This document shows positions 43,044 to 60,218 of a stretch of 64,000 bases of DNA, one piece after another. The stretch comes from Streptosporangium sp. NBC_01755 (GTDB lineage: Bacteria > Actinomycetota > Actinomycetes > Streptosporangiales > Streptosporangiaceae): contig NZ_CP109131.1 in the NCBI RefSeq assembly GCF_035917995.1, positions 4,898,001 to 4,962,000 on the forward strand, written 5' to 3'. Position 1 is the first letter of the stretch. Every line of letters starts with the position of its first letter. Made by a program: the position numbers and the translations under genes. Below the pieces are notes generated by a model. The model searched no databases. It saw only the letters and a list, made by a program, of their open reading frames with translations, and was not told where the DNA came from.

Positions 43044-44717
43044 ATGGGCGGCGACTGGGGCGAGACAGCGAAGCGGTTCGCGCCCGCCCTGCTCGGGCTG
43101 CTGTTCGGGCTGCTCGCTCTCGGTCCCGCGCTGGGGCCGGGATTCGTGCTCAGGTACGACATGGTGTTCGTGCCCGATCCGCCGCCGGTCCTTCCCGGGG
43201 AGGGGTTTCCCCGGGCGGTGCCCAGTGACCTGGTGGTCGCGTTCCTTTCCTGGATCGTCCCCGAGCAGGTGGTCCAGAAGGTCGTCCTGCTGGGAATCTT
43301 CGTGCTGGCCGCGTCCGGCGCGGCCACGCTGGTGCCCTCGGGGAAGCTGGGGCCCCGCCTGGCGGCGGCGGCCTTCTACACCTGGAACGCCTACCTCGCC
43401 CAGCGGCTCCTGCTCGGCCAGTGGGCACTGTTGCTGGGGGTCGCGGGGCTGCCCTGGGCGGTGCGCGCGGTGGCGCTCGGCGGGCGGTCGCGGCTGGTCG
43501 CCGCGCTGCTCCCGGCGGCGGTGGGCGGGTTCCAGGCGATGTTGGTCGCCGCGCCCGCCCTGCTCGCGACGGCGGCGACCGCGCCGGGGGCGACCGCGTC
43601 GGTGGCGGCCGGGGGAACGCCCGCGTCGGTGGTGACCGGGGGAACGCCCGCGCCGGGGGCCGGCGCGACCTCCGCCAGGAGGGTGCGGGTCCGGCGGGTG
43701 GTGGAGGTCGCGCTGGTCATGGCGGTGCTGAGCCTGCCGTGGCTGGTGCCCGCGCTGAGTAGCCGGGCCGTGACCGATCCGGCTGGGGCCTGGGCGTTCG
43801 CGGCCCGGGCCGACGGTCCACTGGGTACGGTCGGCAGCCTGCTCTCGCTCGGCGGGATCTGGAACGCCCACGCCGTCCTGCCGGGCCAGGAGACCTGGTG
43901 GTCGGCGATCGTACGACTGGTGCTCGCCGCGGTCGCCGTCTGGGGGTTCTTTCGCCTCTCCGGCTCGCCGGCGCCCCACGGTGCCGGGGCGGCGAAGTCG
44001 TACCGGGCGGGGCTGGCGGTGGCGGCGGTGGCCGGGTTGGCGGTGGCGCTGGCGGGAGCCTTCGCGCCCGGCGCGCTGGGCGGCCTGATCGGCTGGTGGC
44101 CCGGGTTCGGGCCGCTCCGCGACGGGCAGCTGTACCTTGCCCCGTTCGTCCTGCTGCAGGCGGTGGGCCTGGCCGCGGTCGTCGCGCGCTGGAACTCGCG
44201 CGCCGTCGCAGCCGTCGCGGTGGCCGTCCCGATCCTGGTCCTGCCCACCTTCGCCCTCGGCGTGTTCGGCAGGCTGTCGGCGGTGGACTACCCGGACGAG
44301 TGGCGGGAGGTCCAGGCGATCGTGAACGCCGACCCCGCGCCGGGGGCGCTGCTGTCGCTGCCGTGGGGGGCGCACCGGGCGTTCGGCTGGAACGGCCATC
44401 GGGTGATCCTCGATCCCGCGACCAAGATGTTCCGGCGCCGGGTGCTCTGGAACGACGCGCTGCTGGTGGGGCTGCCCGGAGGTGGCAGGCTGCGGGTCGG
44501 GGCGGAGAGTCCGGCGTCCGCCGCGGTGGAGGCGGCGCTGGGCGCCGAGCCGGGTGGGCGAATGGTGGCGCTAGCAGGGTTAAATATCCGTTATGTTCTT
44601 ATTTATGGGGGTGGCAACTCATTTCACATCCCAGGGGGCGGTGACCCGTTCCACGGTTCGACGACTGTCTTCCAGGGGCACGAACTCCGACTCCTGCGCC
44701 TCGAAGCACCCGCCTGA
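43044..44717 (+). CDS. polytopic membrane protein, GT-C-like
   Basis: 557 residues from the ATG at 43044 (longer starts overlap a duplicated tail). About eleven hydrophobic segments alternate with short loops; after the first helix an extracellular Asp-containing loop (VLRYDMVFVPDPPPVLPGE) recalls the catalytic loop of GT-C glycosyltransferases that use polyprenyl-phosphate sugars. WNAYLAQRLLLGQWALLLG is a further conserved-looking part, and a soluble C-terminal domain follows (ADPAPGALLSLPWGAHRAFGWN). It stands just upstream of the DUF2613, GT4 and AftD-like genes. Whether it is an active transferase or a flippase-like protein is undecided. Confidence 0.7.
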   Translation: MGGDWGETAKRFAPALLGLLFGLLALGPALGPGFVLRYDMVFVPDPPPVLPGEGFPRAVPSDLVVAFLSWIVPEQVVQKVVLLGIFVLAASGAATLVPSGKLGPRLAAAAFYTWNAYLAQRLLLGQWALLLGVAGLPWAVRAVALGGRSRLVAALLPAAVGGFQAMLVAAPALLATAATAPGATASVAAGGTPASVVTGGTPAPGAGATSARRVRVRRVVEVALVMAVLSLPWLVPALSSRAVTDPAGAWAFAARADGPLGTVGSLLSLGGIWNAHAVLPGQETWWSAIVRLVLAAVAVWGFFRLSGSPAPHGAGAAKSYRAGLAVAAVAGLAVALAGAFAPGALGGLIGWWPGFGPLRDGQLYLAPFVLLQAVGLAAVVARWNSRAVAAVAVAVPILVLPTFALGVFGRLSAVDYPDEWREVQAIVNADPAPGALLSLPWGAHRAFGWNGHRVILDPATKMFRRRVLWNDALLVGLPGGGRLRVGAESPASAAVEAALGAEPGGRMVALAGLNIRYVLIYGGGNSFHIPGGGDPFHGSTTVFQGHELRLLRLEAPA

Positions 44718-44850
44718 GCTGGGCATACCCTCAACTCTTCGCGCTACCCGGCGGTAACCTTATCCGTCACATTTTTCCCAAAACTATGGATTATGAGGTG
44801 AATCGCGTCCTACTCTCGGCACACTGTCCGAATTCTGGAGGGAGAGCTCA

Positions 44851-44982
44851 GTGTTACGAGTGATCGCAGCCCTGGCCGTTGGTGCGGTGCTTGCGGTAGG
44901 TGCCTCCGTGGCAATGGTGAACGTGGCCGCGCCCACGCCGGAGCCGCCCAACAGGCCTCTGTACAACTACGGCGACAGGTGA
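44851..44982 (+). CDS. DUF2613-like secreted microprotein
   Basis: 43 residues from a GTG with GGAGGGA eight bases upstream. An N-terminal membrane/signal helix (VIAALAVGAVLAVGASVAMV) is followed by a short Pro-rich tail ending LYNYGDR. In mycobacteria a DUF2613 microprotein (Rv0236A) lies beside aftD and has the same design, including a terminal Tyr-Gly-Asp-Arg. Here too it sits in front of the GT4 and AftD-like genes, which strongly suggests homology. Its function is unknown; a helper of AftD folding or localisation is plausible. Confidence 0.7.
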   Translation: MLRVIAALAVGAVLAVGASVAMVNVAAPTPEPPNRPLYNYGDR

Positions 44983-45120
44983 TCCGGGGGGCCGGGTAAG
45001 GGCCCCTCGGACACGGTTTTTCCCAGCCACTCAGGCTGAACGTCATTGGGAGACAAGGGGGTGTGGCTCTGCCATGCCCCGAGTCGGGCGCGTGCCGCCG
45101 CAGAGGACCGAGGAGACAAT

Positions 45121-46440
45121 GTGGCCGACACCGTGGCCTTTTCCGGCGGGGACGTGAACGCCGGATCCCGTCTGTTCGACCCGTCGTGGCCCAACCTGAG
45201 CGTGGAGGTCATCGAGACCCCCGAGGCGTCCCTGCGCGGAGTCCGGGTGGCGGTGCTGAACTTTCGCGAGCCACAGCAGTCGGCGGCCGGCGGTGCCGAG
45301 GAATACGCCTGGCAGGTCAGCCGCCACCTGATCGCGCAGGGGGCCTCGGTCCACTTCGTGACCGGCCGCGAGCCCGGCCAGGCCGGAGCCGAGCGGCGCA
45401 ACGGTGTCGAGCTGCGCAGGATGGGCAACCGCTACCTCGTCTACCTGCTCGTACCGCTCTGGCTGCTGCTGCACCGCCGCCGCTTCGACGTGGTCATCGA
45501 CTCGATGAACGGCATCCCGTTCTTCTCCCCCCTCGTGGTGCGGCGCCGTACCACGGTGCTCTGCCTGGTGCACCACGTGCACGACCGGCAGTTCCACGCC
45601 TTCCTGCCCTCCTGGCTGGCCAGGATCGGCTGCTTCATCGAGGGGCCCGTGGCCCGGCTGCTCTACCGCCGCCGCACCACGATCACGGTTTCCGAGTCGT
45701 CCAGGACGGACCTCCGTACCAGGCTGCGCTGGCTGGCCCCGATCCAGGTCGTCCCCAACGGCAGCTCGGTGGCCCGCTCGGCCGCGCGGCACACCCTGCC
45801 CGGCGACCCCGCCTTGGTCTACCTGGGCCGGTTGGTCGGCCACAAACGGGTCGACCGCGTCGTCGGCCTGGCGGCCGAGCTGGCCGAGAGCCGTCCGGAC
45901 CTGCGCGTACACGTGGTGGGCCGCGGGCCGGAGACCGACGCCCTGCTGGCGACGGCGGCCGAGCTGGGCGTCGCCGACCGCGTGCATCTGCACGGATTCC
46001 TCAGCGAATCGGGCAAGAACGCCGTGCTCGGCTCAGCCCTGCTGAACGTGACCGCCTCGGAGTTCGAGGGCTGGGGTCTCACCGTGATCGAGGCGGCCGC
46101 CTTCGGCGTGCCCACGGTCGCCTACGACGTCGCCGGGCTACGTGACTCGATCAAGGACGGCGTGACCGGCTGGCTGGTCCGTGACGGTGAGACGCTCGCG
46201 GACGCGGTGGACCGGGCGATCGAGGAGCTGGCCGACCCCGTGCGGCGCACGGCGATCCAGCAGGCCTGCCGGACCTGGGCAGGTGAGTTCACCTGGGGAA
46301 GAACTGGCGCTACTATGACCAGACTTATCGCCACAGAGCTCCCCGCAGCAGTCCGTCGACAGCAGCCTGTGAGCGCCGTGAGCTCGCCGGTCCGGACCTC
46401 CGACCTCCATCTCGCCATGGGTGAGACCGACCCCATTTGA
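45121..46440 (+). CDS. family 4 glycosyltransferase (Rv0225-like)
   Basis: 439 residues, soluble GT-B fold. N-terminal Rossmann domain: VAVLNFREPQQSAAGGAEEY (loop that holds the acceptor/donor). C-terminal donor domain: LVYLGRLVGHKRVDRVVGLA, VHVVGRGPETDAL and the E-x7-E motif EFEGWGLTVIEAAAFGVPTVA. It should transfer a sugar from a nucleotide donor on the cytoplasmic face. GAGGAG seven bases before the GTG at 45121 supports that start. Its last bases overlap the next gene (TTGA), implying coupling to the AftD-like enzyme. Mycobacterial Rv0225 is the probable counterpart. Confidence 0.85.
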   Translation: MADTVAFSGGDVNAGSRLFDPSWPNLSVEVIETPEASLRGVRVAVLNFREPQQSAAGGAEEYAWQVSRHLIAQGASVHFVTGREPGQAGAERRNGVELRRMGNRYLVYLLVPLWLLLHRRRFDVVIDSMNGIPFFSPLVVRRRTTVLCLVHHVHDRQFHAFLPSWLARIGCFIEGPVARLLYRRRTTITVSESSRTDLRTRLRWLAPIQVVPNGSSVARSAARHTLPGDPALVYLGRLVGHKRVDRVVGLAAELAESRPDLRVHVVGRGPETDALLATAAELGVADRVHLHGFLSESGKNAVLGSALLNVTASEFEGWGLTVIEAAAFGVPTVAYDVAGLRDSIKDGVTGWLVRDGETLADAVDRAIEELADPVRRTAIQQACRTWAGEFTWGRTGATMTRLIATELPAAVRRQQPVSAVSSPVRTSDLHLAMGETDPI

Positions 46441-49400
46441 GCACCGCATTGACCCCTGACAGCACGGAAGGCGGGCCCGCCCGGCTACGGCACCGGCTGC
46501 ATCTGCTGGCCGGCTGCCTCCTGCTCGGGGCAATCGCGTTCAACACCTCGCCCGGCCAGGTCATCTCCGAGACCAAGCTCGACATGGCGCTCAACCCCCT
46601 CGGCTTCCTCGCCCGGGCGATGCACCTGTGGGACGGCGCGTTCTTCGGCCACCTGCAGAATCAGGCGTACGGCTACCTGTTCCCGATGGGCCCGTTCTAC
46701 GCGCTCTTCGAGGCGCTGGACATGCCCCCCTGGAACATCCAGCGACTGTGGATGACCCTGGTGCTGTGCGCCGCGTTCGTCGGCGTCGAGCGGGTGGCCC
46801 GCGCGATGGACATCGGCACCCCCGCCACCCGCGTCCTGGCCGGGCTCGCCTACGCCCTGGCACCGCACGCCGTCGCGCTGATCGGGATCAACTCCTCGGA
46901 GTTCCAGCCGAGCGCGGTGCTGCCCTGGATCCTGCTGCCGCTCGTGCACGGCGCCAGGCAGCGGGCGAGCCCGCGCAGGGCGGCGGCCCTGTCGGCGCTG
47001 GCCCTCCTGTTCGCCGGCGGGATCAACGCCGTGGCCGTGCTCGCCGTGCTCGTCGTGCCGCTGCTGTACCTGCTGACCCGGAAGCGCGGACCCCGCATGA
47101 GGCACCTGCTGCTGTGGTGGCTGGGCTGCGTGGGCGCGGTGTCGATGTGGTGGCTGCTGCCCCTGCTGGTGATGGGCCGCTACATCTTCTCCTTCCTGCC
47201 CTTCATCGAGACCGCCTCCGCCACCACGTACGTCACCTCGCTGATCAATGTCCTGCGCGGCACCTCGGGCTGGCTCTCGTTCCTGCCCGTCGACGGGGAG
47301 GCGTTCCTGCCCGCGGCGTTCGAGCAGGCGACATCTCCCGCGCTGATCGCGCTGACCGCGCTGGTCGCCGGGCTCGGCCTCGCCGGGATCGCCGCCCGCG
47401 CCACCCCGGAGCGGGCGTTCCTCACGATCAGCCTGCTGGCCGGGGTCGTGATCGTCTCCGCCGGGCACACCGACGTGCTCGCCCACCCGTGGACCGAGCA
47501 GGTGAGGGCGCTGTTCGACGGTCCCCTCGCGGCCTTCCGCAACCTGCACAAATTCGACGCGCTGCTGCGGCTACCGCTCGCCCTCGGCCTGGCCGCCCTG
47601 CCACTGGCCGCTCCCGTGCGGCTGCGCAGACCCGTCCTCGCGGCGTCCGCGGTCCTCGTCGCGCTCAGCGCGCTGCCCGTCGCCACCGCGGGAACGACCC
47701 CCGCCGGCGCTTTCGACGAGGTGCCCTCCTACTGGCGGGACGCCGCGACCTGGCTGAACCGGAACACCGGGGACGGCATGGTGCTGGCCGCGCCCGGATC
47801 GCGCCGGGGCGAATACCTGTGGGGCCGCCCGATGGACGAGCCCATGCAGTCGCTGCTGACCGTGCGCTGGGCCACCCACACCAACGTGCCCTGGGGGTCG
47901 CCGGGGCTGGCCCGCCTGATCCAGGCGGTGGACGAGCGCTTCGCCACCGGCCGGGGCTCGCCGGGTCTCACCTCGGCGCTGCGCCGGATCGGGGTCACCT
48001 ACCTGCTCGTCCGCAACGACCTGGCGAGGGAGAGCCTGGGCACGGCCTGGCCGGCGCGGGTCCACGAGACCATCGCCGAGTCCACCGGCCTGGAACGGGT
48101 CGCCGCCTTCGGCCCGGAGATCGGGACCAGGGCCAGCACGACGGCCGCCGGCTGGTTCGAGCAGCCCTACCAGGCTCTGGAGGTCTACGCGGTCCCCGAC
48201 CCCGCGCCGCTCGTCGCCACGGTGCCCCGCGAGGGGGTCCTCCGGGTGACCGGGGCACCGGAGGCGGCGCTGGCCCTCGCGGAGGAGGGCCTGCTCGACG
48301 ACGACCGGCCGATGGTGGTCGGCGACGAGTCCGGAGCGGGCGCGACGTCTCCGGAGAACACCGTGGTGACCGACACGCTGCGCCGCCGCGAGATCGTCTT
48401 CGGCGACCTGCGCCGCATCGGCACCGCCACGCTCACCGAGGAGCAGTCGCCGGAACGCGACGGGGAGAGCGACCTCACCGACCCCGCCTGGACCGCCGCC
48501 ACCGCGACCGCCCGCTACTCCGGCATCCTTGACGTGCGGGCCTCCTCCGCCGAGTCACAGATCGGGGCCGGTGACCGGCGCGACCCGGGACGGCAGCCGT
48601 ACGCGGCGCTGGACGCCGACCCGCGCACCGGATGGCGCTCCGACGGCTGGAACGGAGCCGTCGGGGAGTGGCTGGAGGTGCGCCTCGCCGAGCCCGTCGA
48701 CATGCCGAAGATCACTGTCGCGTTCGAGCAGGGGACGCTCGGGCCCGCCGTGGCGGAGGTCGCCCTGGAGACCGACGCGGGAACGCGGCTGGTACCGGTC
48801 GCGGACTCGGCGGAACCGCAGCTGCTGAACCCGCCGGCCGGCAAGACCTCCCGGCTGCGGATCCGGGTCACCAAGCTGGTCTCAGAGCCCGCGTCGCGGG
48901 TCGGCACCCGGGTCGGCATCACCGAGGTCGCGATTCCCGGTGTGCGGGCGACACGCAGCATCGTCGTTCCCGCCGACGGTGAGCGGGATCCCGACACGGT
49001 GCTGCTGACCCGCCAGGGGACCGCGTCGCCGTGCATGCACGGCTCGGCGACCTGGACCTGCTCGCCGTCCCTGGAGATCACCGGCGAGGACGGCTCCGGC
49101 TTCGACCGCATCTTCACGGTCCAGAGCGCGGGGGAACGCGTCGTCACCGGCAGGACCGTGCTCACCGACCCCGCCTCCGCCCAGCTGCTCACCACCATCC
49201 CGGGCGCCTACCCCCAGGTGAGCGCCTCCTCCACGCTGGTCGACCATCCGGCCGTGCTCGGCCGCGCGGCCATGGACGGCGATCTGGACACGGCCTGGTA
49301 CGCCCAGACCTTCGACCGCCACCCGACGCTGACCGTCAAGCTCGGCAAGAAGACCACGATCTCGCAGATCATGGTCCTCTTTCCCGACTCCTTCGTGGGG

Positions 49401-50633
49401 CAGCCGCCGATCAAGGTGAGCGTGCGTGGCGGCGGCCGTACCGCGCAGGGCTGGGTAGGCGCCAACGGGCGCGTCTCCTTCGCGCCGATCCGCACGGACC
49501 GCCTGGAGATCGGCTTCACCGCCCCGGCGTCCCGGCCGATCGAGGTCTCGGAGATCACCATCCCGAGAGTGAAACCGTTCGGCTCGCTGAGGCCGTTCCC
49601 GCTGAGGCTGCCCTGCGGCTACGGTCCCACGCTCACCGTGAACGGCAACCCGGTGGCCACCCAGATCGTCAGCGGCACGCTGGACGACGTGGTCAACGGC
49701 CGCCCGCTCGGCTACCGGGCCTGCGAGCCGGTCGAGCCGGGCGCAGGGGAGGTGCGGATCAGCGCGTCCCCCGGCGACGCCTTCAGGATCGAGTCGATGG
49801 TCGTGCGGACGTCCGCAGCCGATGCCCGGCGCGCGATCACGGCCACGCCCGCCACCGCGCAGGTATGGGGGCAGGAGGAGCGCCGGGTGCGGGTCTCCAC
49901 CACGGGCCCCTCCTACCTGGTGGTCAACGAGAACCACAACGTCGGCTGGCAGGCCTCCCTCGGCGGCAGGCGGCTGACACCGGTCAGGCTGGACGGCTGG
50001 CGGCAGGCGTGGGAACTTCCTGCCGGCCAGGGCGTCGTGACCATGCGCTACGAGCCCGACTCCGCCTACCGTATGGCGCTGGTCGGCGGCTGGACGCTGG
50101 TGCTGCCGGTGGCGGCGTTGGCGCTCATCCGTTCCGCCTGGCCGGCCAAGTCGCGGGGGGCGAGGCCCGCCGTGATCCGGGCGGCCTGGGTCTGGCCGCT
50201 CGTCCCGCTCCTCGGCCTGTGGACCGGAGGCTTCGCGGGGATGGCGATCATCACCGGGGCGACGGCCCTGTTCGCCTGGCTGGAGGCGGTGGCCCAGGCC
50301 AGGCACGCCCGTCTCGGCGTGCTCCCCGGGCTGGCGGGCGCGGCGGCCACCCCCTGGGCGCTCGTCGTGCCGATCGGCCTGGCAGGTCTCGCGCTCGCCG
50401 CCGGCACCCGGTACGGCGGCCTCGACGCGACCGAGGTGTTCACCGGGCCGCTGACCGGTGTCGTGCCGCAGGTGCTCTGCCTGCTGGTGCTCGCCTGGCT
50501 GGCGGCCGCGCTTCCCGGTCGCGCTCCGGCCGAGGTGGCCGGTCGCGCTCCGGCCGAGGCGCCCGCGCCGCCGCGCCGCGCGTCGGCCCGGCGGCCGGCA
50601 CCCGAGTCCGAATCGACGGTGGTGGGCCGGTGA
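46437..50633 (+). CDS. AftD-like arabinofuranosyltransferase
   Basis: 1398 residues, almost the length of mycobacterial AftD (1400). The start contains the AftD-type loop ETKLDMALNPLGFLARAMHL and NQAYGYLFPMGPFYALFE with about eleven membrane helices in the first 420 residues (GT-C fold). The large extracytoplasmic part holds carbohydrate-binding-like beta modules (ALDADPRTGWRSDGWNGAVG and AAMDGDLDTAWYAQTFD look like two F5/8-type domains) and VNENHNVGWQASLGG, then a few helices at the end. AftD adds alpha-1,3-arabinofuranose from decaprenyl-phosphoryl-arabinose. DPA-making genes lie 7 kb downstream. The TTG start overlaps GT4; the C-terminal tail has a 24-base repeat. Confidence 0.88.
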   Translation: MSTALTPDSTEGGPARLRHRLHLLAGCLLLGAIAFNTSPGQVISETKLDMALNPLGFLARAMHLWDGAFFGHLQNQAYGYLFPMGPFYALFEALDMPPWNIQRLWMTLVLCAAFVGVERVARAMDIGTPATRVLAGLAYALAPHAVALIGINSSEFQPSAVLPWILLPLVHGARQRASPRRAAALSALALLFAGGINAVAVLAVLVVPLLYLLTRKRGPRMRHLLLWWLGCVGAVSMWWLLPLLVMGRYIFSFLPFIETASATTYVTSLINVLRGTSGWLSFLPVDGEAFLPAAFEQATSPALIALTALVAGLGLAGIAARATPERAFLTISLLAGVVIVSAGHTDVLAHPWTEQVRALFDGPLAAFRNLHKFDALLRLPLALGLAALPLAAPVRLRRPVLAASAVLVALSALPVATAGTTPAGAFDEVPSYWRDAATWLNRNTGDGMVLAAPGSRRGEYLWGRPMDEPMQSLLTVRWATHTNVPWGSPGLARLIQAVDERFATGRGSPGLTSALRRIGVTYLLVRNDLARESLGTAWPARVHETIAESTGLERVAAFGPEIGTRASTTAAGWFEQPYQALEVYAVPDPAPLVATVPREGVLRVTGAPEAALALAEEGLLDDDRPMVVGDESGAGATSPENTVVTDTLRRREIVFGDLRRIGTATLTEEQSPERDGESDLTDPAWTAATATARYSGILDVRASSAESQIGAGDRRDPGRQPYAALDADPRTGWRSDGWNGAVGEWLEVRLAEPVDMPKITVAFEQGTLGPAVAEVALETDAGTRLVPVADSAEPQLLNPPAGKTSRLRIRVTKLVSEPASRVGTRVGITEVAIPGVRATRSIVVPADGERDPDTVLLTRQGTASPCMHGSATWTCSPSLEITGEDGSGFDRIFTVQSAGERVVTGRTVLTDPASAQLLTTIPGAYPQVSASSTLVDHPAVLGRAAMDGDLDTAWYAQTFDRHPTLTVKLGKKTTISQIMVLFPDSFVGQPPIKVSVRGGGRTAQGWVGANGRVSFAPIRTDRLEIGFTAPASRPIEVSEITIPRVKPFGSLRPFPLRLPCGYGPTLTVNGNPVATQIVSGTLDDVVNGRPLGYRACEPVEPGAGEVRISASPGDAFRIESMVVRTSAADARRAITATPATAQVWGQEERRVRVSTTGPSYLVVNENHNVGWQASLGGRRLTPVRLDGWRQAWELPAGQGVVTMRYEPDSAYRMALVGGWTLVLPVAALALIRSAWPAKSRGARPAVIRAAWVWPLVPLLGLWTGGFAGMAIITGATALFAWLEAVAQARHARLGVLPGLAGAAATPWALVVPIGLAGLALAAGTRYGGLDATEVFTGPLTGVVPQVLCLLVLAWLAAALPGRAPAEVAGRAPAEAPAPPRRASARRPAPESESTVVGR

Positions 50634-51592: not shown

Positions 51593-51912
51593 GCGGCGCC
51601 CAGGTGGCGGCCTGGGACGGCGGCTGCCTCCCGCTGAGCGACCGCACCGCCGTCGCCGACCTGCCCGCCGGGTACGAGGGGAACATCTTCCACATCGACT
51701 ACCGGGTGCCGAGGGACACGCGCGCGACGGTGCTCGGGGACGGGCGGCGGGCCGAGGTCCCGCTCAGGGCCGGCCGGGACCGGGTCTACCTGCCGGCCGC
51801 GGCGGCATCGGGGCCAGGGCGGATCTCGGTCCAGGACGACGGGGTCTGCCTGCGCGCGGTGGTGCTCGGCATGGCGGTACCGGAGGAGGCGGTCAGTGGC
51901 GGCGCAGGATGA
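51589..51912 (+). CDS. small hypothetical protein coupled to DUF3068
   Basis: 107 residues, no membrane segment, mostly beta-type sequence (DLPAGYEGNIFHIDYRVP, VLGDGRRAEVPLRAGRDRVYL) with two Cys. It overlaps the DUF3068 stop (ATGA) and its own end overlaps the convergent methyltransferase end by 20 bases. The pattern recalls a small carbohydrate-binding beta sandwich, but I cannot assign it. Codon bias is good, so it is probably real. Confidence 0.6.
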   Translation: MSGAQVAAWDGGCLPLSDRTAVADLPAGYEGNIFHIDYRVPRDTRATVLGDGRRAEVPLRAGRDRVYLPAAAASGPGRISVQDDGVCLRAVVLGMAVPEEAVSGGAG

Positions 51913-52681: not shown

Positions 52682-52759
52682 AACACCGCGTTGCCAGCGA
52701 ACTTTTCACACTCGTAGGCTGTTTTGCCGGAACACGGGGAGCTAGAAGGGGGAGGGCCG

Positions 52760-54643
52760 GTGGAGGCCGCGGAGACGGAACGCCCGGAGCGGCCGGAGCC
52801 GTCGGCGCTGCGGATCGTGCTGCCCGGCTGGCCGGCGGCCCTCCGCAGCCCGGTGCTGCTCGGCGCCGCCCTGCTCATCGTGGTGTCGCTCGTGCTGCGG
52901 GTGCTGATCCTGCGCGACTCCTACTTCGTCGAGGACGACCTGCTCTTCGTCGGCGACGCCTACCAGAGCGACCTCACCCTCGACTTCGTGACCCGGGTGC
53001 ACAAGGGGCACTTCATGCCCGGCGCCCTCGCGCTGACCTGGGTGCTCTCGCGCATCGCGCCCTACGACTGGCTGCTGGTGGCCGGTGTCACGTTCGTCGC
53101 GCAGGCGCTGCTCAGCGTGCTGGCGCTCAGGCTGCTGCGGATCCTGTTCGGCACCCGGCCGGCGATCCTGCCGCTGCTGGCCCTGTTCCTGTTCTCCCCG
53201 CTGACGATCCCGGCCTTTGGCTGGTGGGCGGCCGCCATCAACGCGGTGCCGCTCCAGCTCGCCCTGGTACTCGCGCTGACCGGCCAGGTCCGTTTCGCTC
53301 ACGGCGAGGGCGCCCGGTACGGCCGGCACGCGCTGGCGTGGTGCGTGGTCGGCATGGCCTTCAGCACCAAGGGGGTCTTCGTCACCTTCCTGCTCTTCGC
53401 CCTGACCACCGCCTTCCTGCGGGAGAGGGAGACGGGCTGGATCTCCTCGATGCTCGGCGAGGTACGGCGGCACTGGCGGCTCTGGTCGGTGCACGTGATG
53501 GCGCTCGCCACCTACACGATCGTCTATCTCGCCAGGATGGGAACGGCGCCGGGGGAGGGCGCCTCGGTGCCCGATCCCGGCGTGGCCGCCGACCTGTTCT
53601 CGCTCCTGCTGGGCCGGACGTTCCCCAGCGGGGCGATCGGCGGTCCTGTCGACTGGGCGCCGACCCCGACCGGCGGCCTGACCGCCCCCTCCGACGTCCT
53701 CGTCGCCGTCTCCTGGGCGGTCCTGGCGGTCCTGCTGGTGATCACCGTCCTCTACCGGCGCCGCGCGCTGCGGGCGTGGCTCGTCCTGGGCGGCTACCTG
53801 CTGCTCGCCGACGCGATCCCCACGGTGATCGCCCGGGGCAACTACACGTCGCTGGTGGGCCTGGAGAGCCGTTACGTCGCGGACGCGGTGGTCGTCCTGA
53901 TGATCTGCCTGGGGCTCGCCCTGCTGCCGGTCAGGGGGGAGAGCGGCGCCTACCGCCACGCGCTGCCCGCGCCGTCCGCGCTCGTCCTAGCCGCGGGGCT
54001 GACCTCGAGTGCCTACCTCATGCTGTCGACGATCTCGATCGGCGCCTATCGGGACACCCTCACCGGCGACCGCGTCCGCTCCTACCTCGACACGGCCGCC
54101 GCTCAGCTCGCCGCGGCGCCGGACAACGTGGTGATCTATCCGACCACACTCCCCGACGACATCGTGCTCCCGGTCAACGGTGAACGGCGGCTCAGCAGCC
54201 ACCTGCTCGCCCCGCTGGCCCGCCCGACCGTACGGGTCAGGATGGCGCACCCGGAACCCTCGGAGGACGCCAAGGTCTTCAACCGGGAAGGCAGGCTGGT
54301 GCGGATGAGCATCTTCGGCTTCCTGGCCACCAGGGGCGAGGGCGAGCGGTGCATGCGGACCCTGGACGGCACCGCGTTCTTCCCCGACGCGGTCTCCTTC
54401 GGCGGGAAGGCCACGGCGGGCGCGCTGGCCTACGTCTCCGACCGGCCGGTCTCGGTGACCGTGCAGGTCGGTGAGGAACGGATCGTGCTCAGCCTGAAGA
54501 AGACCTCAGACGGCCTCGTCCACTTCCCGGTGACGGGGGTGGGCAAGGGGATGAACATCGTGATGGACGACCCGACGGCCCCGCTCTGCCTGACCGGCGT
54601 CGCACTCGGGGCGCCGGTCGCCGAGGGCGAGCAGCCCTTCTAG
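52760..54643 (+). CDS. polytopic membrane glycosyltransferase-like protein (Rv0226c-like position)
   Basis: 627 residues from a GTG with GGGGGAGG upstream. About twelve helices; after the first, an acidic loop DSYFVEDDLLFVGDAYQSD resembles the GT-C catalytic loop, and HKGHFMPGALALTWVLSRIAPYDW is a further conserved part. The soluble C-terminus (about 200 residues, FGGKATAGALAYVSDRPVSVTVQ) looks like a beta-rich carbohydrate-binding module. Its position beside the methyltransferase matches Rv0226c in mycobacteria. It probably transfers a sugar or moves glycan across the membrane; the donor is unknown. Confidence 0.7.
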   Translation: MEAAETERPERPEPSALRIVLPGWPAALRSPVLLGAALLIVVSLVLRVLILRDSYFVEDDLLFVGDAYQSDLTLDFVTRVHKGHFMPGALALTWVLSRIAPYDWLLVAGVTFVAQALLSVLALRLLRILFGTRPAILPLLALFLFSPLTIPAFGWWAAAINAVPLQLALVLALTGQVRFAHGEGARYGRHALAWCVVGMAFSTKGVFVTFLLFALTTAFLRERETGWISSMLGEVRRHWRLWSVHVMALATYTIVYLARMGTAPGEGASVPDPGVAADLFSLLLGRTFPSGAIGGPVDWAPTPTGGLTAPSDVLVAVSWAVLAVLLVITVLYRRRALRAWLVLGGYLLLADAIPTVIARGNYTSLVGLESRYVADAVVVLMICLGLALLPVRGESGAYRHALPAPSALVLAAGLTSSAYLMLSTISIGAYRDTLTGDRVRSYLDTAAAQLAAAPDNVVIYPTTLPDDIVLPVNGERRLSSHLLAPLARPTVRVRMAHPEPSEDAKVFNREGRLVRMSIFGFLATRGEGERCMRTLDGTAFFPDAVSFGGKATAGALAYVSDRPVSVTVQVGEERIVLSLKKTSDGLVHFPVTGVGKGMNIVMDDPTAPLCLTGVALGAPVAEGEQPF

Positions 54644-54764
54644 CCTCTTGGAGGTCTCTCGGGTCCGGCCACCGTACCGGGTCGGGTCGTACATGTGAGC
54701 AGCCCTCCTAGCCCTTGGAGGTCTCCGGGGTCCGCCGTACGGGTTGCAGGTCCGATCCCTCCGC
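54629..54764. repeat. 68-bp diverged tandem duplication between convergent gene ends
   Basis: GAGCAGCCCT(T/C)CTAGCC starts at 54629 and again at 54697; the following TTGGAGGTCTC and GGGTCCG segments match with small gaps. The copies carry the stop of the plus-strand membrane gene (first) and of the minus-strand acyltransferase (second), so the two genes share duplicated ends. Confidence 0.75.
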
Positions 54765-56009
54765 GGGCTCCGGGCGCAGGGGCGGGCGCACGAGGCGGTT
54801 GAGACGCTGGGCGGGCTGTTCCACGAACAGGTAGGTCAGGGTGGCCATCACGAGCGTGATGACGGTGATGGGGACCAGGTTGGCCAGGAAGTCGCCGGAG
54901 AACTGCTGCTGCTCGGTGAAGCCGTACCACAGGTAGATGGCCGCGAACTGCCAGAGGAAGACGCCGTAGGAGATGCGGCCGAGGAAGCCCATCACCGGGT
55001 TGGCGAGCAGGGCCTTCACCGGTGAGTCGCCCGGCGGTGGCAGCGTGGCCGGGACGAGCAGGCACAGGGCCACGATCGCGTAGAGGGCCAGCTCGAACAG
55101 GCCCGACCAGACGCCGTCGATGCCGAGGAAGCGGGTTCCGGTCACGGGGGAGGCGGCGACGGCGTACGCCAGGGCGGCGACCAGCCACCACGAGCCGGGG
55201 GAGGCCCACACCGCCCGTTCGAAACGCCGGGCGGGGGAGTCGGTGTCCGGGGTGGCGCGGATCCAGGCCAGCACCACGGCCAGCGCCATCCCCACGGCGA
55301 AGAAGATCATCGACCGGGGCGGCCAGCTGTTCAGGAAGGGCCGGTACTCCGGATAGTAGGTCAGCAGCGTCCAGGCGAAGGAGAGTGCGATCAGCACGCC
55401 CAGGCCCATCAGCAGCCGCCGGGCCCGCCGGTGCACGTCCGCCCCGCCGCGCCGGGCGAAGGCGGCCAGGCCCGCCGCGAGCAGCGGGAGCAGAAGGTAG
55501 AAGGCCATCTCGACCGAGAGGCTCCACATCTGGGCCAGGCCCTTGGGCCCCAGGCCGAACCACCAGGGCTCGGTGACGTAGTTCTGGTTGAGGGTCAGGA
55601 GCGTCAGCCAGCTCCAGGCGTCGGAGACGTGGTCGCGCGACCAGATGAACATGGTCACCACGACCACCAGCCAGTAGGCGGGCAGGATGCGCACCGCCCG
55701 CTTCCACAGGTAGGAACGGGTGTGGACGTCGGGGGTCCCGCACAGTAGCGCGGCCGCGTAGGGGCGGTAGAGCAGCAGCCCGGAGAGCGCGAAGAAGATC
55801 GGCACCGCCACGTCGCCGCGGGAGAGCAACGCGCCGCCGAAGCCGTCGCGCAGCGCGGCACCGGACTCGCTCGCGACATGGAAGACGAGCACCGCGAACG
55901 AGGCGATGGCCCGCACACCGTCAAGAGTGGCCAGATGTCCGGATATTTTAGGGGGAGGCTGCGGAGAAAGCCGTTCCGATCTAGAACTTGTTTCGGTCAC
56001 TTTCCGCAT
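54708..56009 (-). CDS. acyltransferase family 3 membrane protein
   Basis: 433 residues with about ten helices. The family signature is present: LDGVRAIASFAVLVFHVASE (catalytic His), FFALSGLLLYRPYAAA and LWKRAVRILPAYWLVVV, and MWSLSVEMAFYLLLP. Acyltransferase-3 proteins O-acylate sugars at the outer face; Rv0228 is the mycobacterial neighbour of the same genes. The ATG at 56009 with GAGGG upstream is preferred to a TTG at 56066, which overlaps a perfect TTGACA (-35, 56061-56066). It is divergent from the second DUF3068 gene. Confidence 0.85.
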   Translation of the reverse strand: MRKVTETSSRSERLSPQPPPKISGHLATLDGVRAIASFAVLVFHVASESGAALRDGFGGALLSRGDVAVPIFFALSGLLLYRPYAAALLCGTPDVHTRSYLWKRAVRILPAYWLVVVVTMFIWSRDHVSDAWSWLTLLTLNQNYVTEPWWFGLGPKGLAQMWSLSVEMAFYLLLPLLAAGLAAFARRGGADVHRRARRLLMGLGVLIALSFAWTLLTYYPEYRPFLNSWPPRSMIFFAVGMALAVVLAWIRATPDTDSPARRFERAVWASPGSWWLVAALAYAVAASPVTGTRFLGIDGVWSGLFELALYAIVALCLLVPATLPPPGDSPVKALLANPVMGFLGRISYGVFLWQFAAIYLWYGFTEQQQFSGDFLANLVPITVITLVMATLTYLFVEQPAQRLNRLVRPPLRPEPAEGSDLQPVRRTPETSKG

Positions 56010-56117
56010 CCCTCGGTGGCGTCGATCAGTCGCTGCACTTAACATACTGGTCAGTAGTCTTGTCAATCCACTTATTTCCCCCTAAACCCCCCATGCTGTA
56101 ATCCCCCAGGAGGGTAG

Positions 56118-57050
56118 ATGCGTCGGGTCGTCGGAGTGACCCTGTTAGCCGTCGGGGCGTTCCTCGTTGTGCTCGCGCCGCTGGTGCGGTTCCAGATCGG
56201 CGGCAACCTGATCGCGGCTCCGGCCGCCCAATACGGGATCAGCAAGCTGGAGGCCACCGGGGCGCAGTACTTCAGCGCCAAGGAGCTCAAGGTGATGACC
56301 GGCGACCTGACCATCACCGTCACCACCCGCGGGGACGTGTCCCAGTTCCAGGGCGACCGGGTCGTCTGGGACGAGTTCACCGTGGTCAACGACCCGACGA
56401 ACGATAACCCGAGCTTCTCGTTCGGCCAGCGGCGCAGTGCTTTCAACAAGTACACCGGCGAGGGCATCAACTGCTGCGCGGTGAACATCGACAAGAAGCC
56501 CAGCAAGCTTGAGGGACAGATCTACAAGTTCCCCTTCGACGTCGAGAAGAAGACCTACAAGGTCTTCAACTCCGTCGCGGGCGTGGCCTTCGACGCCACC
56601 TTCGTCGGCGAGGAGGACGTCAACGGCCTGCCGGCGTACAAGTTCGAGCAGGTGGCCCCGGAGACGAAGACCGAGACCCATGGCATCCCCGCTTCGATCA
56701 TGGGCGTGAAGGACGCGAAGGGCAAGGACGTGAAGGGCGACGTCCAGGTGGACCGGTTCTACGAGGGCAAGAACACCTACTGGATCGAGCCGGTGACCGG
56801 CTCACCGGTCAAGCAGGAGCAGCAGCGCAACGACGTCCTGAGGACCCAGGACGGCGCCCACAGCATCGTCGCCTTCGCGGCGACGGTCAAGATGACCTCC
56901 CAGACCGTCGACGAGCTGGTGCGCAACGCCACCGAGGGCAAGAACCAGATCACCCTGCTCAAGGTGACGATCCCGGCGATCCTGGTGCTGCTGGGGCTCG
57001 CCCTGCTGGTCACCGGATTCCTCCTGGTCCGCCGGACCGGCCGGGGCTGA
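56118..57050 (+). CDS. DUF3068 membrane-anchored protein (second copy)
   Basis: 310 residues. N-terminal helix (VVGVTLLAVGAFLVVLAPLVRF), extracellular domain and C-terminal helix (LKVTIPAILVLLGLALLVTGFLLV). QFQGDRVVWDEFTVVND, RRSAFNKYTGEGINCC and GLPAYKFEQVAPETKTE align with family patterns and with the first copy, though identity between the two is modest, so they are old paralogues. AGGAGGGTAG precedes the ATG. It leads the putative operon DUF3068-ubiA-dprE1-dprE2, with a 23-base gap to the next start. Confidence 0.87.
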   Translation: MRRVVGVTLLAVGAFLVVLAPLVRFQIGGNLIAAPAAQYGISKLEATGAQYFSAKELKVMTGDLTITVTTRGDVSQFQGDRVVWDEFTVVNDPTNDNPSFSFGQRRSAFNKYTGEGINCCAVNIDKKPSKLEGQIYKFPFDVEKKTYKVFNSVAGVAFDATFVGEEDVNGLPAYKFEQVAPETKTETHGIPASIMGVKDAKGKDVKGDVQVDRFYEGKNTYWIEPVTGSPVKQEQQRNDVLRTQDGAHSIVAFAATVKMTSQTVDELVRNATEGKNQITLLKVTIPAILVLLGLALLVTGFLLVRRTGRG

Positions 57051-57073: not shown

Positions 57074-58003
57074 GTGAACGAGAAAGCGGTGGCCGGGCAC
57101 ACCTCCCCTGACGCTCCGGAACCCACCCTCTCAGGCGCCCGGAGGTTCTCGCCCGTCGCCCTTGCCCGGGCCTGCCGCCCGCGCCAGTGGCTGAAGAACG
57201 CCCTGGTGTTCGCGGCCCCGGCGGCGGCCGGCGTACTGGGAACCGCCCAGGGCCTGCTGGGCGCGCTGATCGCCTTCGTGGCGTTCTGCCTGGCCGCCGG
57301 CGGCACCTACCTGCTCAACGACGCCGCCGACGTCGAGGCCGACCGCCGCCACCCGCGCAAGCGCCACCGCCCCGTCGCGGCGGGCCTGGTCTCGGTACGG
57401 CTCGCGTGGACCGTCGGAGTCCTGCTCATCGTGCTCGCCCCGGCGTTCGCCGCGCTGTCGGGTGACTGGCGGCTGCCGGCCGTCGTCGTCGGATACCTGG
57501 CGCTGACCTTCGCCTACACCTACTGGCTCAAGCACGAGGTGGTGGTGGACCTGGTCGCGGTCGCGGGCTGCCACGTGATCCGCGCCTTCGGCGGGGCGGT
57601 CGCCGTGGATGTGCCGGTGACGAGCTGGTTCCTTGTGGTGATCTCGCTCGGCTCGCTCCAGCTCGTGGCGGGCAAACGGGAGGCCGAGCTGCGCGCCTCC
57701 GCCGGCGGCAACTCCACCCGCGCCATCCTGGCCGCCTACACCCCCGGCTACCTGGCCGGTGTCCGGATGATGTCGTCCGGCGCCATGATCGTGACCTACT
57801 GCCTGTGGGCGCTCAACGACCACCCGGGACCGTTCTACGGGATCAGCATCGTGCCCTTCCTGCTCATCGTGCTGCGGCACAATCTGCTGGTGGACCGGGG
57901 AGTGGGGGAGGAGCCGGAGGAGCTCGCCCTGCGCGACCGGCCCACCCAGGTGTTCGTCGCGCTCCTGCTCGTCTCGCTCGCCCTCGGGATCTACCCGCCT
58001 TGA
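57074..58003 (+). CDS. decaprenyl-phosphate phosphoribosyltransferase (UbiA family)
   Basis: 309 residues, eight to nine helices. CRPRQWLKNALVFAAP is the family start, LLNDAADVEADRRHPRKRHRPVAAG holds the first Asp-rich Mg/diphosphate motif (NDxxDxxxD), and GYLALTFAYTYWLKH with the second motif follows (VVVDLVAVAGCHVIRAFGG). It matches mycobacterial Rv3806c (DppR), which transfers 5-phosphoribose from PRPP to decaprenyl phosphate, the first step to decaprenyl-phosphoryl-arabinose. DprE1 follows after 49 bases. The 5'-phosphatase that must act next is not in this window. Confidence 0.9.
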   Translation: MNEKAVAGHTSPDAPEPTLSGARRFSPVALARACRPRQWLKNALVFAAPAAAGVLGTAQGLLGALIAFVAFCLAAGGTYLLNDAADVEADRRHPRKRHRPVAAGLVSVRLAWTVGVLLIVLAPAFAALSGDWRLPAVVVGYLALTFAYTYWLKHEVVVDLVAVAGCHVIRAFGGAVAVDVPVTSWFLVVISLGSLQLVAGKREAELRASAGGNSTRAILAAYTPGYLAGVRMMSSGAMIVTYCLWALNDHPGPFYGISIVPFLLIVLRHNLLVDRGVGEEPEELALRDRPTQVFVALLLVSLALGIYPP

Positions 58004-58052
58004 CCCCCTCTCCAGCGCCGAAGCCCGAGGTCTCCATGCCCAAGGAGATTCG

Positions 58053-59378
58053 ATGACCTTCCTGACCGGCTGGGGCCGTACCGCGCCGACCCCCGCGCGC
58101 CTGGCCAGGCCCCGCTCCGCCGAGGAGGTCGCCGAGCTGGTGCGGCGGGCGCCGGGCCGGGGCGTCGCGGTCCGGGGACTCGGCCGCTCCTACGGCGACG
58201 CCGCGCAGAACTCCGGCGGTCTGGTCCTCGACTGCACCGCGCTGACCTCGTGGTCCCTGGACGAGACAACCGGCCTGGTCGTCGCCGCCGCCGGGCTGAG
58301 CCTGCACGACCTGATGGGCGCCCTGGTGCCCCTGGGCTGGTTCGTCCCGGTCACCCCGGGCACCAGGCACGTGACGGTCGGCGGGGCCGTGGCGGCGGAC
58401 GTGCACGGCAAGAACCACCACGCCGACTCCTCCTTCGGCGCCCACCTGCGCTCCCTGACCCTCGTCACGGCCGACGGCGCCGGCCGTACGCTGACCCCGG
58501 GCGACGACCTGTTCTGGGCCACGGTCGGCGGGATGGGGCTCACCGGTGTGATCACCGAGGCGGTGTTCCAGTGCCTGCCGATCGAGACCTCCCGGGTGCG
58601 GGTGGACGTCGAGCGCACCCGGGACCTGGACCACACGCTGGAGACGATGGCGGCCACCGATCACCGCTACCGCTACACGGTCGCCTGGATCGACCTGCTC
58701 GCCTCCGGCGGCCGGATGGGCCGCAGCGTGCTCACCAGGGGAGACCACGCGACCCGCGACGAGCTGCCGCGCGGTGCCGACCCGCTGGCGTTCGCTCCCG
58801 GTTTCGCGGTGAAGGCCCCCGGCTGGGCGCCGAACGGCCTGCTCAACCAGGTGACCGTACGGGCCTTCAACGAGGCCTGGTACCGGAGGTCGCGCCCCGG
58901 CACCGGTCTCATCCAGGGGCTCGCGCCCTTCTTCCACCCGCTGGACTCGGTGAACGGCTGGAACCGGGTCTACGGCTCGCGCGGTTTCGTCCAGTACCAG
59001 TTCCTGGTGCCCTTCGGCGAGGAGGCGACGCTGCGCCGGATCGTCTCGCGGCTGTCGGCCGACGGGGTGGTCTCCTTTCTCACCGTGCTCAAGCGGTTCG
59101 GTCCGGGCACGCCGGGGATGCTGTCCTTCCCGGTCCCCGGCTGGACGCTCGCCCTGGACATCCCCGCCGGCCGGCGGGGGCTGGCCGGGCTGCTGCGCGA
59201 GTTCGACGGCTGGGTGGCCGGGGCGGGCGGGCGGATCTACCTGGCCAAGGACTCGCGGATGTCGGCCGAGACGATGGCCGCGATGTATCCCCGGCTGGCA
59301 GAGTGGCGGGAGGTCCGCGACGAGGTGGATCCGGCCGGGGTGTTCTGCTCGGACCTGGCCAGGAGACTCTCCCTTTGA
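58053..59378 (+). CDS. dprE1: decaprenylphosphoryl-beta-D-ribose oxidase DprE1
   Basis: 441 residues. LTGWGRTAPTPA, GLGRSYGDAAQNSGG (Tyr60-equivalent), VTPGTRHVTVGGAVAADVHGKNHH (His132-equivalent) and AKDSRMSAET (Lys399, the mycobacterial Lys418) identify DprE1. It oxidises decaprenylphosphoryl-ribose to the 2-keto form with FAD. The residue that benzothiazinones modify, Cys387 in M. tuberculosis (WNICVDF), is Ala367 here (WTLALDI), so intrinsic resistance to covalent inhibition is predicted. AAGGAG before the ATG sets the start. It lies between the UbiA-type enzyme and dprE2. Confidence 0.95.
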   Translation: MTFLTGWGRTAPTPARLARPRSAEEVAELVRRAPGRGVAVRGLGRSYGDAAQNSGGLVLDCTALTSWSLDETTGLVVAAAGLSLHDLMGALVPLGWFVPVTPGTRHVTVGGAVAADVHGKNHHADSSFGAHLRSLTLVTADGAGRTLTPGDDLFWATVGGMGLTGVITEAVFQCLPIETSRVRVDVERTRDLDHTLETMAATDHRYRYTVAWIDLLASGGRMGRSVLTRGDHATRDELPRGADPLAFAPGFAVKAPGWAPNGLLNQVTVRAFNEAWYRRSRPGTGLIQGLAPFFHPLDSVNGWNRVYGSRGFVQYQFLVPFGEEATLRRIVSRLSADGVVSFLTVLKRFGPGTPGMLSFPVPGWTLALDIPAGRRGLAGLLREFDGWVAGAGGRIYLAKDSRMSAETMAAMYPRLAEWREVRDEVDPAGVFCSDLARRLSL

Positions 59379-59471
59379 GCCGCGTTCGTGTGACGTGCCG
59401 TGCGACTCGGCCCCCGTGGTGGGCGAGCGGACACGTTCCGGTTCCGGGACGCCGATGAGGAGGTCGGTTCG

Positions 59472-60218
59472 ATGAAGAACGCGCTGGGCGCGGTGGACAC
59501 CGTGCTGCTGCTGGGCGGGCGCAGCGAGATCGGGCTGGCGATCGTCGAGCGGCTGGTCCGTGACGGTGCCCGCCGGGTCGTGCTCGCCGCCCGTGCCGCC
59601 ACCGCCGGGCCGCCCCCGGTGATCGGGGCCGCCGAGGTGCACCTGCTGGACTTCGACGCCTCCCGCCCCGAGACGCACGGTGAGGTGATCGAGGCCGCCG
59701 CGAAGCTGGTCGGCGACCTGGACGTGGTCATCCCCGCCTTCGGCGTGCTGGGCCGCCAGGACGTCTATGACGCCGACCCGGTGGCCGCCGCCGAGGCGGT
59801 CGCGGTCAACTACGGCGGGCACGTGTCCGCCGGGCTCTTCGCCGCGCGGCGGCTGCGCGAGCAGGGCCACGGCACGCTGGTGGTGCTCTCCTCGGTGGCC
59901 GGGGTGCGGGTGCGCCGGGCCAACTTCGTGTACGGCTCGGCCAAGGCGGGCCTGGACGGGTTCGCGCAGGGGCTGGGTGACGCCCTGCACGGATCGGGTG
60001 CCCGGGTGATGGTGGTCCGGCCTGGTTTCGTGATCGGCAGGATGACCGAGGGCATGTCTCCCGCACCGATGTCGTCCACTCCGGGCCGGGTCGCCGACGC
60101 GGTGATCGCCGGGTTGCGCGTCGACGCCGAGGTCGTCTGGGTCCCCGGCAGGCTGCGGGTGTTCTTCGCGGTGATGCGCGTGCTGCCGCGCGCGATCTGG
60201 CGCCGGATGCCTCGGTGA
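59472..60218 (+). CDS. dprE2: decaprenylphosphoryl-2-keto-ribose reductase DprE2
   Basis: 248 residues, short-chain dehydrogenase fold. TVLLLGGRSEIGLAI is the nucleotide-binding motif, VVIPAFGVLG follows, the catalytic Ser lies in VVLSSVAGVRVRR and the Tyr/Lys in ANFVYGSAKAGLDGF. The strings RRANFVYGS and KAGLDGF are also in mycobacterial DprE2. With NADH it reduces the keto intermediate to decaprenylphosphoryl-arabinose, completing the epimerisation begun by DprE1. GAGGAGG before the ATG at 59472 decides the start; 93 bases separate it from dprE1. It is the last gene of the arabinan locus. Confidence 0.93.
   Translation: MKNALGAVDTVLLLGGRSEIGLAIVERLVRDGARRVVLAARAATAGPPPVIGAAEVHLLDFDASRPETHGEVIEAAAKLVGDLDVVIPAFGVLGRQDVYDADPVAAAEAVAVNYGGHVSAGLFAARRLREQGHGTLVVLSSVAGVRVRRANFVYGSAKAGLDGFAQGLGDALHGSGARVMVVRPGFVIGRMTEGMSPAPMSSTPGRVADAVIAGLRVDAEVVWVPGRLRVFFAVMRVLPRAIWRRMPR

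Follow-up and report, generated by a model that had tools for sequence, protein, structure and literature searches.

In the Corynebacterineae, a set of envelope genes lies together in the tmaT-aftD locus, which in Corynebacterium glutamicum runs as cg3161 (aftD), cg3163 (tmaT), cg3164, cg3165, cg3166 (a putative glycosyltransferase) and cg3168 (mtrP) (PMC7775120), cg3165 being mmpA (PMC11175481). The members studied are reported to act either in the acetylation and transport of trehalose mycolates or in the maturation of lipomannan (LM) and lipoarabinomannan (LAM) (PMC8698533, PMC9678360), and the mmpA, tmaT and mtrP mutants of C. glutamicum have one trehalose-corynomycolate defect in common (PMC8698533). 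With mycobacterial proteins, two-hybrid assays have placed AftD, TmaT and Rv0227c in contact with MmpL3 and paired Rv0227c both with TmaT and with AftD, AftD binding being seen also by surface plasmon resonance (PMC6656915). In this study, we have analysed a block of about 17 kb in Streptosporangium sp. NBC_01755, in which counterparts of these genes adjoin those for the arabinose donor polyprenyl-phosphoryl-D-arabinofuranose (DPA). The block runs from MmpA (43044) to DprE2 (60218) within a stretch of 64,000 nucleotides, hereafter the window (contig NZ_CP109131.1, positions 4,898,001 to 4,962,000 of a single-contig genome of 8.15 Mb).

We propose, with a probability of roughly 0.55, that this is a two-part envelope locus, in which a core makes and moves a glycan or glycolipid and a DPA arm may arabinosylate the core product. 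The most economical account is that of a core machine shared by actinomycetes of the class with and without mycolates, which many Streptosporangiales supplement with a DPA arm that has its own Emb-like transferase. The proposal starts from the gene identities, a content held in common with loci of the mycobacterial family, the all-or-none occurrence of AftD, MmpA and PgfA, the presence of AftD in genomes without known DPA genes, the association of a gene at 52724-54643 with those genes, and the lack of any Emb match over the cut-off. A first-pass annotation of the same DNA had read the block as a self-contained arabinan-assembly locus of a non-mycolic host, making a methylated and acylated glycan. 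As a whole that interpretation is partly supported; its view of the host agrees with a family description in which mycolic acids are stated to be absent (PMC6113628).

Two further systems invite comparison. The mycobacterial DPA pathway (Rv3806c, Rv3807c, DprE1, DprE2) resembles the window in its decaprenyl-phosphate phosphoribosyltransferase (DPPR synthase), DprE1 and DprE2. The three-component pentofuranose systems of PMC11127046 (GT136) are a widespread set of a polyprenyl phosphoribosyltransferase, an optional DprE1/DprE2 pair and a transferase of the glycosyltransferase C fold (GT-C) with a carbohydrate-binding module (CBM). These are likened to the window by gene set, not by sequence; they serve O antigens and use a HAD phosphatase and a MATE flippase, whereas the window has an AftD-MmpA-PgfA core.

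The locus and its mycobacterial counterparts

The 13 genes of the locus are, in order (aa, amino acids; ORF, open reading frame; GT4, glycosyltransferase family 4):

43044..44717, plus strand: MmpA homologue, 557 aa, with a predicted GT-C-type membrane fold (NF053599 338 bits, cut-off 210; the ORF opens at 42990)
44851..44982, plus strand: conserved microprotein of 43 aa with a PLYNYGxR tail, DUF2613-like in place, between MmpA and GT4
45121..46440, plus strand: GT4 glycosyltransferase in the cg3166 position (PF00534 107.9 bits, cut-off 26.4; ORF from 45046)
46437..50633, plus strand: AftD, 1398 aa (PF11847 754 bits, cut-off 26; CBM_AftD PF24607 55.9 bits, cut-off 27; PDB 6w98; TTG start given by the ORF caller, overlapping the GT4 stop)
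50630..51592, plus strand: DUF3068/PorA protein 1, the AftD-adjacent paralogue by its place in the tree (PF11271 239.6 bits, cut-off 29.5; PgfA NF053601 234.6 bits, cut-off 160; GTGA overlap with AftD)
51589..51912, plus strand: 107 aa left from the C-terminal end of a second GT-C gene that is longer in close relatives (identity to an ORF of S. amethystogenes)
51893..52681, minus strand: methyltransferase, MtrP-like by place (PF08241 67.3 bits)
52724..54643, plus strand: GT-C transferase of 639 aa with a CBM-like C-terminal domain, candidate DPA-dependent arabinosyltransferase (AlphaFold2 model, Foldseek)
54708..56066, minus strand: acyltransferase 3, TmaT-like by place (PF01757 112.6 bits, cut-off 31)
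56118..57050, plus strand: PgfA-type DUF3068 protein 2, the DPA/acyltransferase-adjacent paralogue by its place in the tree (NF053601 270.3 bits; PF11271 246.9 bits)
57074..58003, plus strand: DPPR synthase, UbiA family (NF008978 381 bits, cut-off 207; PDB 8j8j, E=2.8e-61)
58053..59378, plus strand: DprE1 oxidase (NF053785 601.5 bits, cut-off 500; PDB match E=1.7e-125)
59400..60218, plus strand: DprE2 reductase (NF053786 290.5 bits, cut-off 250; start probably at 59472)

The genes named in the first-pass annotation are ORFs where it had placed them, its GT4, methyltransferase and acyltransferase 3 are confirmed by profile matches, and its pairing of a DPA-donor set with AftD holds by the curated cut-offs, PF11847 and 6w98. 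It had missed the first gene of the locus, which by its profile match is MmpA, and the PgfA identity that the cut-off gives to both DUF3068 genes.

Like the tmaT-aftD locus of the Corynebacterineae (cg3161-cg3168; Rv0224c-Rv0228 plus Rv0236c), the window brings together AftD, a TmaT-like acyltransferase, DUF3068 proteins (PgfA/LmcA), MmpA, a glycosyltransferase and an MtrP-like methyltransferase, its MmpA and PgfA equivalogs standing beside AftD as they do there. The GT4 position corresponds to that of Rv0225. The two loci differ in gene order and strands, mycolates are not expected in the window's host, and only the window has two DUF3068 paralogues, an extra GT-C gene and DPA genes inside the locus. 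The DPA genes of M. tuberculosis lie at a chromosomal place separate from its tmaT-aftD locus.

The mycobacterial family is represented by eight loci, each mapped over 20 kb around AftD (in the one genome checked, the AftD GT-C domain matches the solved mycobacterial enzyme at 1059 bits, which marks it as mycobacterial); at least one of five partners (acyltransferase, DUF3068, MmpA, GT4, methyltransferase) is found in seven of them and all five in four. Other families of the class have all five beside AftD in four of seven loci (L111, L112, L116, L117), and three loci of one family (coded f3) carry only DUF3068, GT4 and the methyltransferase. In the eight mycobacterial-family loci, the acyltransferase query scores 120-149 bits in six, and the methyltransferase query 192-243 bits in six and 51 in one, with no match in one. 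Control stretches of 257 kb gave no match for MmpA, PgfA, GT4 or the methyltransferase, and two weak ones, at 45-46 bits (59-61 without composition adjustment), for the acyltransferase. Because the modifier genes, with MmpA and PgfA, match the tmaT-locus set, the methyl and acyl decoration of an arabinan, as supposed in the first-pass annotation, is not the first inference to be drawn from them.

The model of MmpA (AlphaFold2, pLDDT 78.1) has a GT-C fold, with oligosaccharyltransferase (OST), DPY19, AglB and AftA as the best Foldseek matches. Its Asp39, after helix 1, is kept in 94% of the 67 rows outside the class-level set, while an aspartate is found there in 6/6 rows of the mycobacterial family and in 3/4 rows of other families of the class; in an alignment of 20 rows, the window protein is 32-33% identical to two mycobacterial-family copies. 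PMC8698533 had already noted that MmpA resembles the N-terminal part of AftD, and it states that, this partial resemblance aside, homologues of MmpA are confined to corynebacteria and mycobacteria. The present data contradict that restriction. MmpA and PgfA have NCBIfam names and DUF3068 is described as confined to actinobacteria (PMC9678360), so the extension of these families beyond mycobacteria has not been hidden from annotators. In our literature search, which left subscription papers largely outside, no paper was found that treats such a gene set in bacteria lacking mycolates, the evolution of arabinogalactan (AG) or DprE1 with arabinofuranose in Streptomyces; lipoglycans were represented by a lipoteichoic acid paper mentioning Thermobifida fusca and whole-cell sugars by the taxonomy paper PMC6113628.

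AftD, MmpA and PgfA across the order

One set of 150 genomes of the order was searched for every gene. AftD is found in 126 genomes, PgfA in 125 and MmpA in 125, of which 123 are over the curated cut-off. The three are all-or-none, occurring together in 125 genomes and being all absent in 24 (four of the latter assigned by elimination); the sole mismatch, a genome with AftD but without MmpA and PgfA, is a fragmented assembly. DprE1 (at least 395 bits) occurs in 90 genomes, 80 with AftD and 10 without, and DPPR synthase (at least 200 bits) in 88. In 44 of the 126 AftD-bearing genomes both DprE1 and DPPR synthase are absent at these cut-offs, which is indirect evidence against a strict need of AftD for DPA: AftD does not track the DPA genes, a point missed in the first-pass annotation, and its constant partners are MmpA and PgfA. 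The Emb profile (Arabinose_trans, PF04602) is not reached over its cut-off in any of the 150 genomes, one match of 20.6 bits falling below it and the window's own genome giving none. In a sample of the whole phylum, AftD homologues were found in 60 of 396 genomes, 58 of them over the cut-off.

Judged by its profile and by alignment with the solved mycobacterial enzyme (PDB 6w98, E=3.8e-151 over residues 28-1307), the product of 46437-50633 is a true member of the AftD family, with 90% identity to its counterpart in Streptosporangium amethystogenes and 82% to the one in S. canum, and its earlier placement in an arabinosyltransferase family is not overturned. K47, D49, E258, R368, N369, K372 and D467, whose roles we infer from their position, are unchanged in all 17 rows examined from genomes without DprE1 (one of these, L098, retains DPPR synthase).

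The DUF3068 tree has 122 rows (of 123 collected, one was dropped for gaps, and in 42 of the 123 the neighbour was unassigned). In this tree, 47 AftD-adjacent copies split from the other 75 with a support of 93, below the starred level; the larger side holds the acyltransferase- and DPA-adjacent copies, those of the mycobacterial family, the copies that stand alone in DPA-minus genomes and some long branches.

Conserved in both place and sequence, the 43-aa microprotein appears as 54 ORFs in the 111 loci examined. The first-pass annotation was right about its presence and went too far in calling it DUF2613 outright, an identity that we rejected: PF11021 gives no match for the window copy or for two of seven relatives, and stays below the cut-off in the other five. 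Immediately 3' of this gene and 5' of GT4 lies a terminator-like hairpin (44983-45011), possibly related to attenuation. Overlaps of a few bases join GT4, AftD, DUF3068 protein 1 and the 107-aa remnant, which suggests a single transcript; a scan for sigma-70 promoters found none.

The DPA genes and the GT-C gene at 52724

The identities of DPPR synthase, DprE1 and DprE2 are established, at the level of sequence profiles, by the curated NCBIfam cut-offs, and the NDxxDxxxD stretch of DPPR synthase is aligned with that of 8j8j. As the DprE2 match begins only at residue 25, translation probably starts near 59472. Alignment of DprE1 with the solved mycobacterial enzyme puts an Ala where the latter has a Cys, which we take to be the Cys bound by benzothiazinones. 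The window departs from the mycobacterial pathway in that no phosphatase for the phosphoribosyl lipid was found among the 13 locus genes and 10 flanking genes scanned, the other window genes and the rest of the genome not having been searched; the absence from the window stated in the first-pass annotation stands for these genes. In DPA-minus loci, no other donor-making gene appeared among the 10 genes scanned. In four of them (L079, L091, L093, L146), the gene after the PgfA-type one encodes a nitronate monooxygenase (4/4 where the next gene was scanned). Three Actinomadura loci (L143, L146, L155) have no DPA genes within the 24 kb covered.

Among the 80 genomes that carry both, the distance from DprE1 to AftD is within 30 kb in 44 and large, though on one contig, in 5, while in 31 the two are on separate contigs; the first figure is a lower bound, since some separations are assembly breaks. 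The genus coded g239 has the locus in two pieces, MmpA-microprotein-GT4-AftD-DUF3068 (four loci, L072-L075) and methyltransferase-GT-C-acyltransferase-PgfA-DPPR synthase-DprE1-DprE2 (7/7 loci, L156-L162). Even when split from the core, the DPA genes thus retain the methyltransferase, the 52724 gene, the acyltransferase and PgfA, in favour of the two-part reading. Two other genera (g238, g243) each hold both kinds of locus, with and without DPA and the 52724 gene, and their AftDs fall in different clades, which suggests the exchange of whole loci, in the manner of surface polysaccharide loci. In an AftD tree built from 61 rows, hand-chosen to cover the genera and both DPA states, the DPA state changes 8 times. 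This coming and going of parts is in line with the portable module that had been suspected in the first-pass annotation.

Three other settings of the DPA genes were noted. In L122, from another class of the phylum, an AftD homologue lies near DprE2, DprE1 and UbiA. In L166 (5886-9352) and L169 (10644-14212), which have DprE1 and no AftD, a fused acyl-CoA dehydrogenase, that of L166 being 79% identical to window 40707-42920, directly adjoins UbiA, so that the intervening block is absent while DPA stays. In L163 (4026-11402), DprE1 and DprE2 stand beside a GT2 and a CDP-glycerol glycerophosphotransferase, a teichoic-like setting with no UbiA match in 20 kb.

The gene at 52724-54643, overlooked in the first-pass annotation, is by its model (AlphaFold pLDDT 87.1) a GT-C transferase, Emb-like by fold and outside any Pfam family. 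Foldseek gives 8 matches with E from 4e-5 to 9e-4, all Emb, ArnT or one oligosaccharyltransferase (EmbC 4e-5, EmbB 2.8e-4, ArnT 3.8e-4), followed by AftD (0.0019), AftA (0.0077) and AftB (0.043), and the C-terminus has weak CBM6 matches at E about 0.05. With EmbA/B/C and ArnT the predicted protein has in common the fold, an acidic motif after helix 1 (E70-D71-D72, invariant in 20/20 aligned rows) and the CBM-like C-terminus; unlike them, it is shorter and has no PF04602 match. It matches no Pfam family and, by sequence, no PDB chain, and no Pfam family is common to more than one of 20 aligned relatives. Together with AftD and MmpA, it would bring the GT-C-type proteins of the locus to three rather than one. 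The 107-aa ORF at 51589, considered as a new small protein, was rejected as such: along 97 aa it has 89.7% identity to the C-terminal end of a 615-aa ORF of S. amethystogenes, of which about 1.6 kb (L125 15131-16770) are missing at window 51589-51912, and is thus the remnant of a GT-C paralogue.

Orthologues of the 52724 gene (at least 335 bits, three split matches being summed) are present in 74 of 80 genomes with AftD and DprE1, in 2 of 46 with AftD and no DprE1, and in 0 of 10 with DprE1 and no AftD. A plain claim of co-occurrence, at a Fisher p of 7.5e-25, was rejected; the association is suggestive, because independent events on the AftD tree are few and shared descent accounts for most of it. 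The 52724 gene is nonetheless the clearest candidate for a DPA-linked transferase.

Weighing the explanations

In the two-part reading, the core (MmpA, GT4, AftD, DUF3068/PgfA, methyltransferase, acyltransferase) would be the non-mycolate form of the tmaT-aftD locus, for which we infer the catalytic steps, the acceptor, the role in transport and the donor of each GT-C enzyme as follows. In the cytoplasm, GT4 probably begins or lengthens a glycan or glycolipid that is linked to a lipid carrier. The acyl- and methyltransferases would condition this product for export, AftD and MmpA, both of GT-C fold, would process it outside the membrane, and onward transport of the lipid would fall to the PgfA-type proteins. 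The DPA arm (DPPR synthase, a phosphatase presumably encoded elsewhere, DprE1 and DprE2) would make polyprenyl-phosphoryl-D-arabinofuranose, with the 52724-54643 enzyme as its main user and AftD possibly as another, so that arabinofuranose is added to the core product. The idea of the first-pass annotation that arabinose would be unusual in cells of the Streptosporangiaceae type comes from general chemotaxonomy.

A number of observations weigh against this proposal. In the five loci from other classes, AftD has neither MmpA nor PgfA as a neighbour (0/5), a count that, like the 4/8 and 4/7 given above, was unchanged when L086 and the 20 class- and phylum-level loci were remapped without composition adjustment; the remaining gene maps were made with composition-adjusted tblastn and may miss matches. 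The acyltransferase, the methyltransferase and GT4 belong to large families, so that their orthology rests on neighbourhood, and no curated TmaT or MtrP model matched the window acyltransferase and methyltransferase. Several AftD residues that are steady in DPA-plus and mycobacterial-family rows vary in DPA-minus rows (T299 kept in 41%, H371 in 65%, E468 in 47%, T647 in 18% and Y1211 in 41%, with R651 also variable), and AftD may work differently there. In six of the 44 genomes without the DPA pair, a UbiA-type match scores 141-164 bits, short of the DPPR synthase cut-off, which leaves room for another donor route, and AftD is missing from 10 genomes that have DprE1. The association of the 52724 gene with DPA is structured by clade: in 7 independent pairs differing in DPA, the gene varies in the same sense in 2-3, in the opposite sense in 0 and not at all in 4-5 (p 0.25-0.5). 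The 52724 gene occurs without DprE1 in G421 and G472 (the latter fragmented and retaining DPPR synthase), and DprE1 without the 52724 gene, at the chosen cut-off, in genomes 420, 436, 445, 458, 485 and 504. The thresholds used (335, 395 and 200 bits) were set once the lists had been seen, with the three split matches summed, and the query-normalised Foldseek TM-scores are low, at 0.27-0.43, for both the MmpA and the 52724 models (the latter 0.27-0.38).

Among the alternatives, the model of the first-pass annotation, a single dedicated arabinan pathway in which AftD is the main DPA-using arabinosyltransferase and the methyl- and acyltransferases decorate the arabinan, has the best standing, and we regard it as unlikely. 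A true AftD in one block with DPPR synthase, DprE1 and DprE2, the linkage of DprE1 to AftD in at least 44 of 80 genomes, the arrangement in L122 and the role of AftD in mycobacterial AG and LAM (PMC12041299) all speak for it, as does the association of AftD with both DPA genes (Fisher p=0.0006, p=0.07 for DprE1 alone, kinship being ignored in both). It has to face, however, the 44 AftD-bearing genomes without the DPA pair, in which the main AftD residues are intact in the rows examined, the constant company of MmpA and PgfA, and an assembly that can hardly be called self-contained when Emb is over its cut-off in 0/150 genomes and the phosphatase was not found at the locus. In this particular strain, which has both arms, an arabinan may nevertheless be made.

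The curated matches of MmpA and PgfA, and the common defect of the C. glutamicum mutants mentioned above (PMC8698533), could also point to the export of a trehalose lipid, in which a non-mycolate trehalose ester is acetylated and carried by MmpA and the TmaT-, MtrP- and PgfA-like proteins and arabinan is secondary. We find this improbable for a family described as free of mycolic acids (PMC6113628), and the all-or-none occurrence of the trio AftD, MmpA and PgfA speaks for a glycan partner. The last alternative, that the DPA arm serves some other product (a teichoic-like polymer, a secondary metabolite or a pilin) and adjoins the core through chance or common regulation, would suit the 10 genomes with DprE1 and no AftD, L166 and L169, which keep DPA without the intervening block, and the setting of L163. 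It is the least probable of all, given that the DPA genes keep the 52724 gene, the acyltransferase and PgfA where the locus is split, and that at least two PgfA-type genes are present in 78 of the 79 genomes that combine PgfA with DprE1, compared with 20 of the 46 that lack DprE1 (raw counts, kinship ignored).

MmpA, PgfA, TmaT and MtrP have so far been studied as parts of mycolate export or of the making of LM and LAM. In an order whose type family is described as mycolate-free, 123 of 150 genomes have an MmpA match above the curated threshold, and there MmpA is lost or kept together with AftD and PgfA; if this pattern holds, the ancestral cargo of the machine would not have been a mycolate, and the data suggest that the machinery is older than the mycobacterial outer membrane. 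More tentatively, and with distinctly less confidence, the 52724 gene could be the founder of a so far undescribed arabinofuranosyltransferase family whose members bear a CBM and depend on DPA, and AftD, MmpA, PgfA and the TmaT- and MtrP-like proteins would form a DPA-independent envelope-glycolipid machine that predates mycolic acids and was later used by mycobacteria for trehalose mycolates. With 44 genomes that have AftD but no known DPA genes, the question of the AftD donor is open to direct testing, and, should the above pattern hold, these harmless soil bacteria would offer a simpler setting for the function of AftD, MmpA and PgfA.

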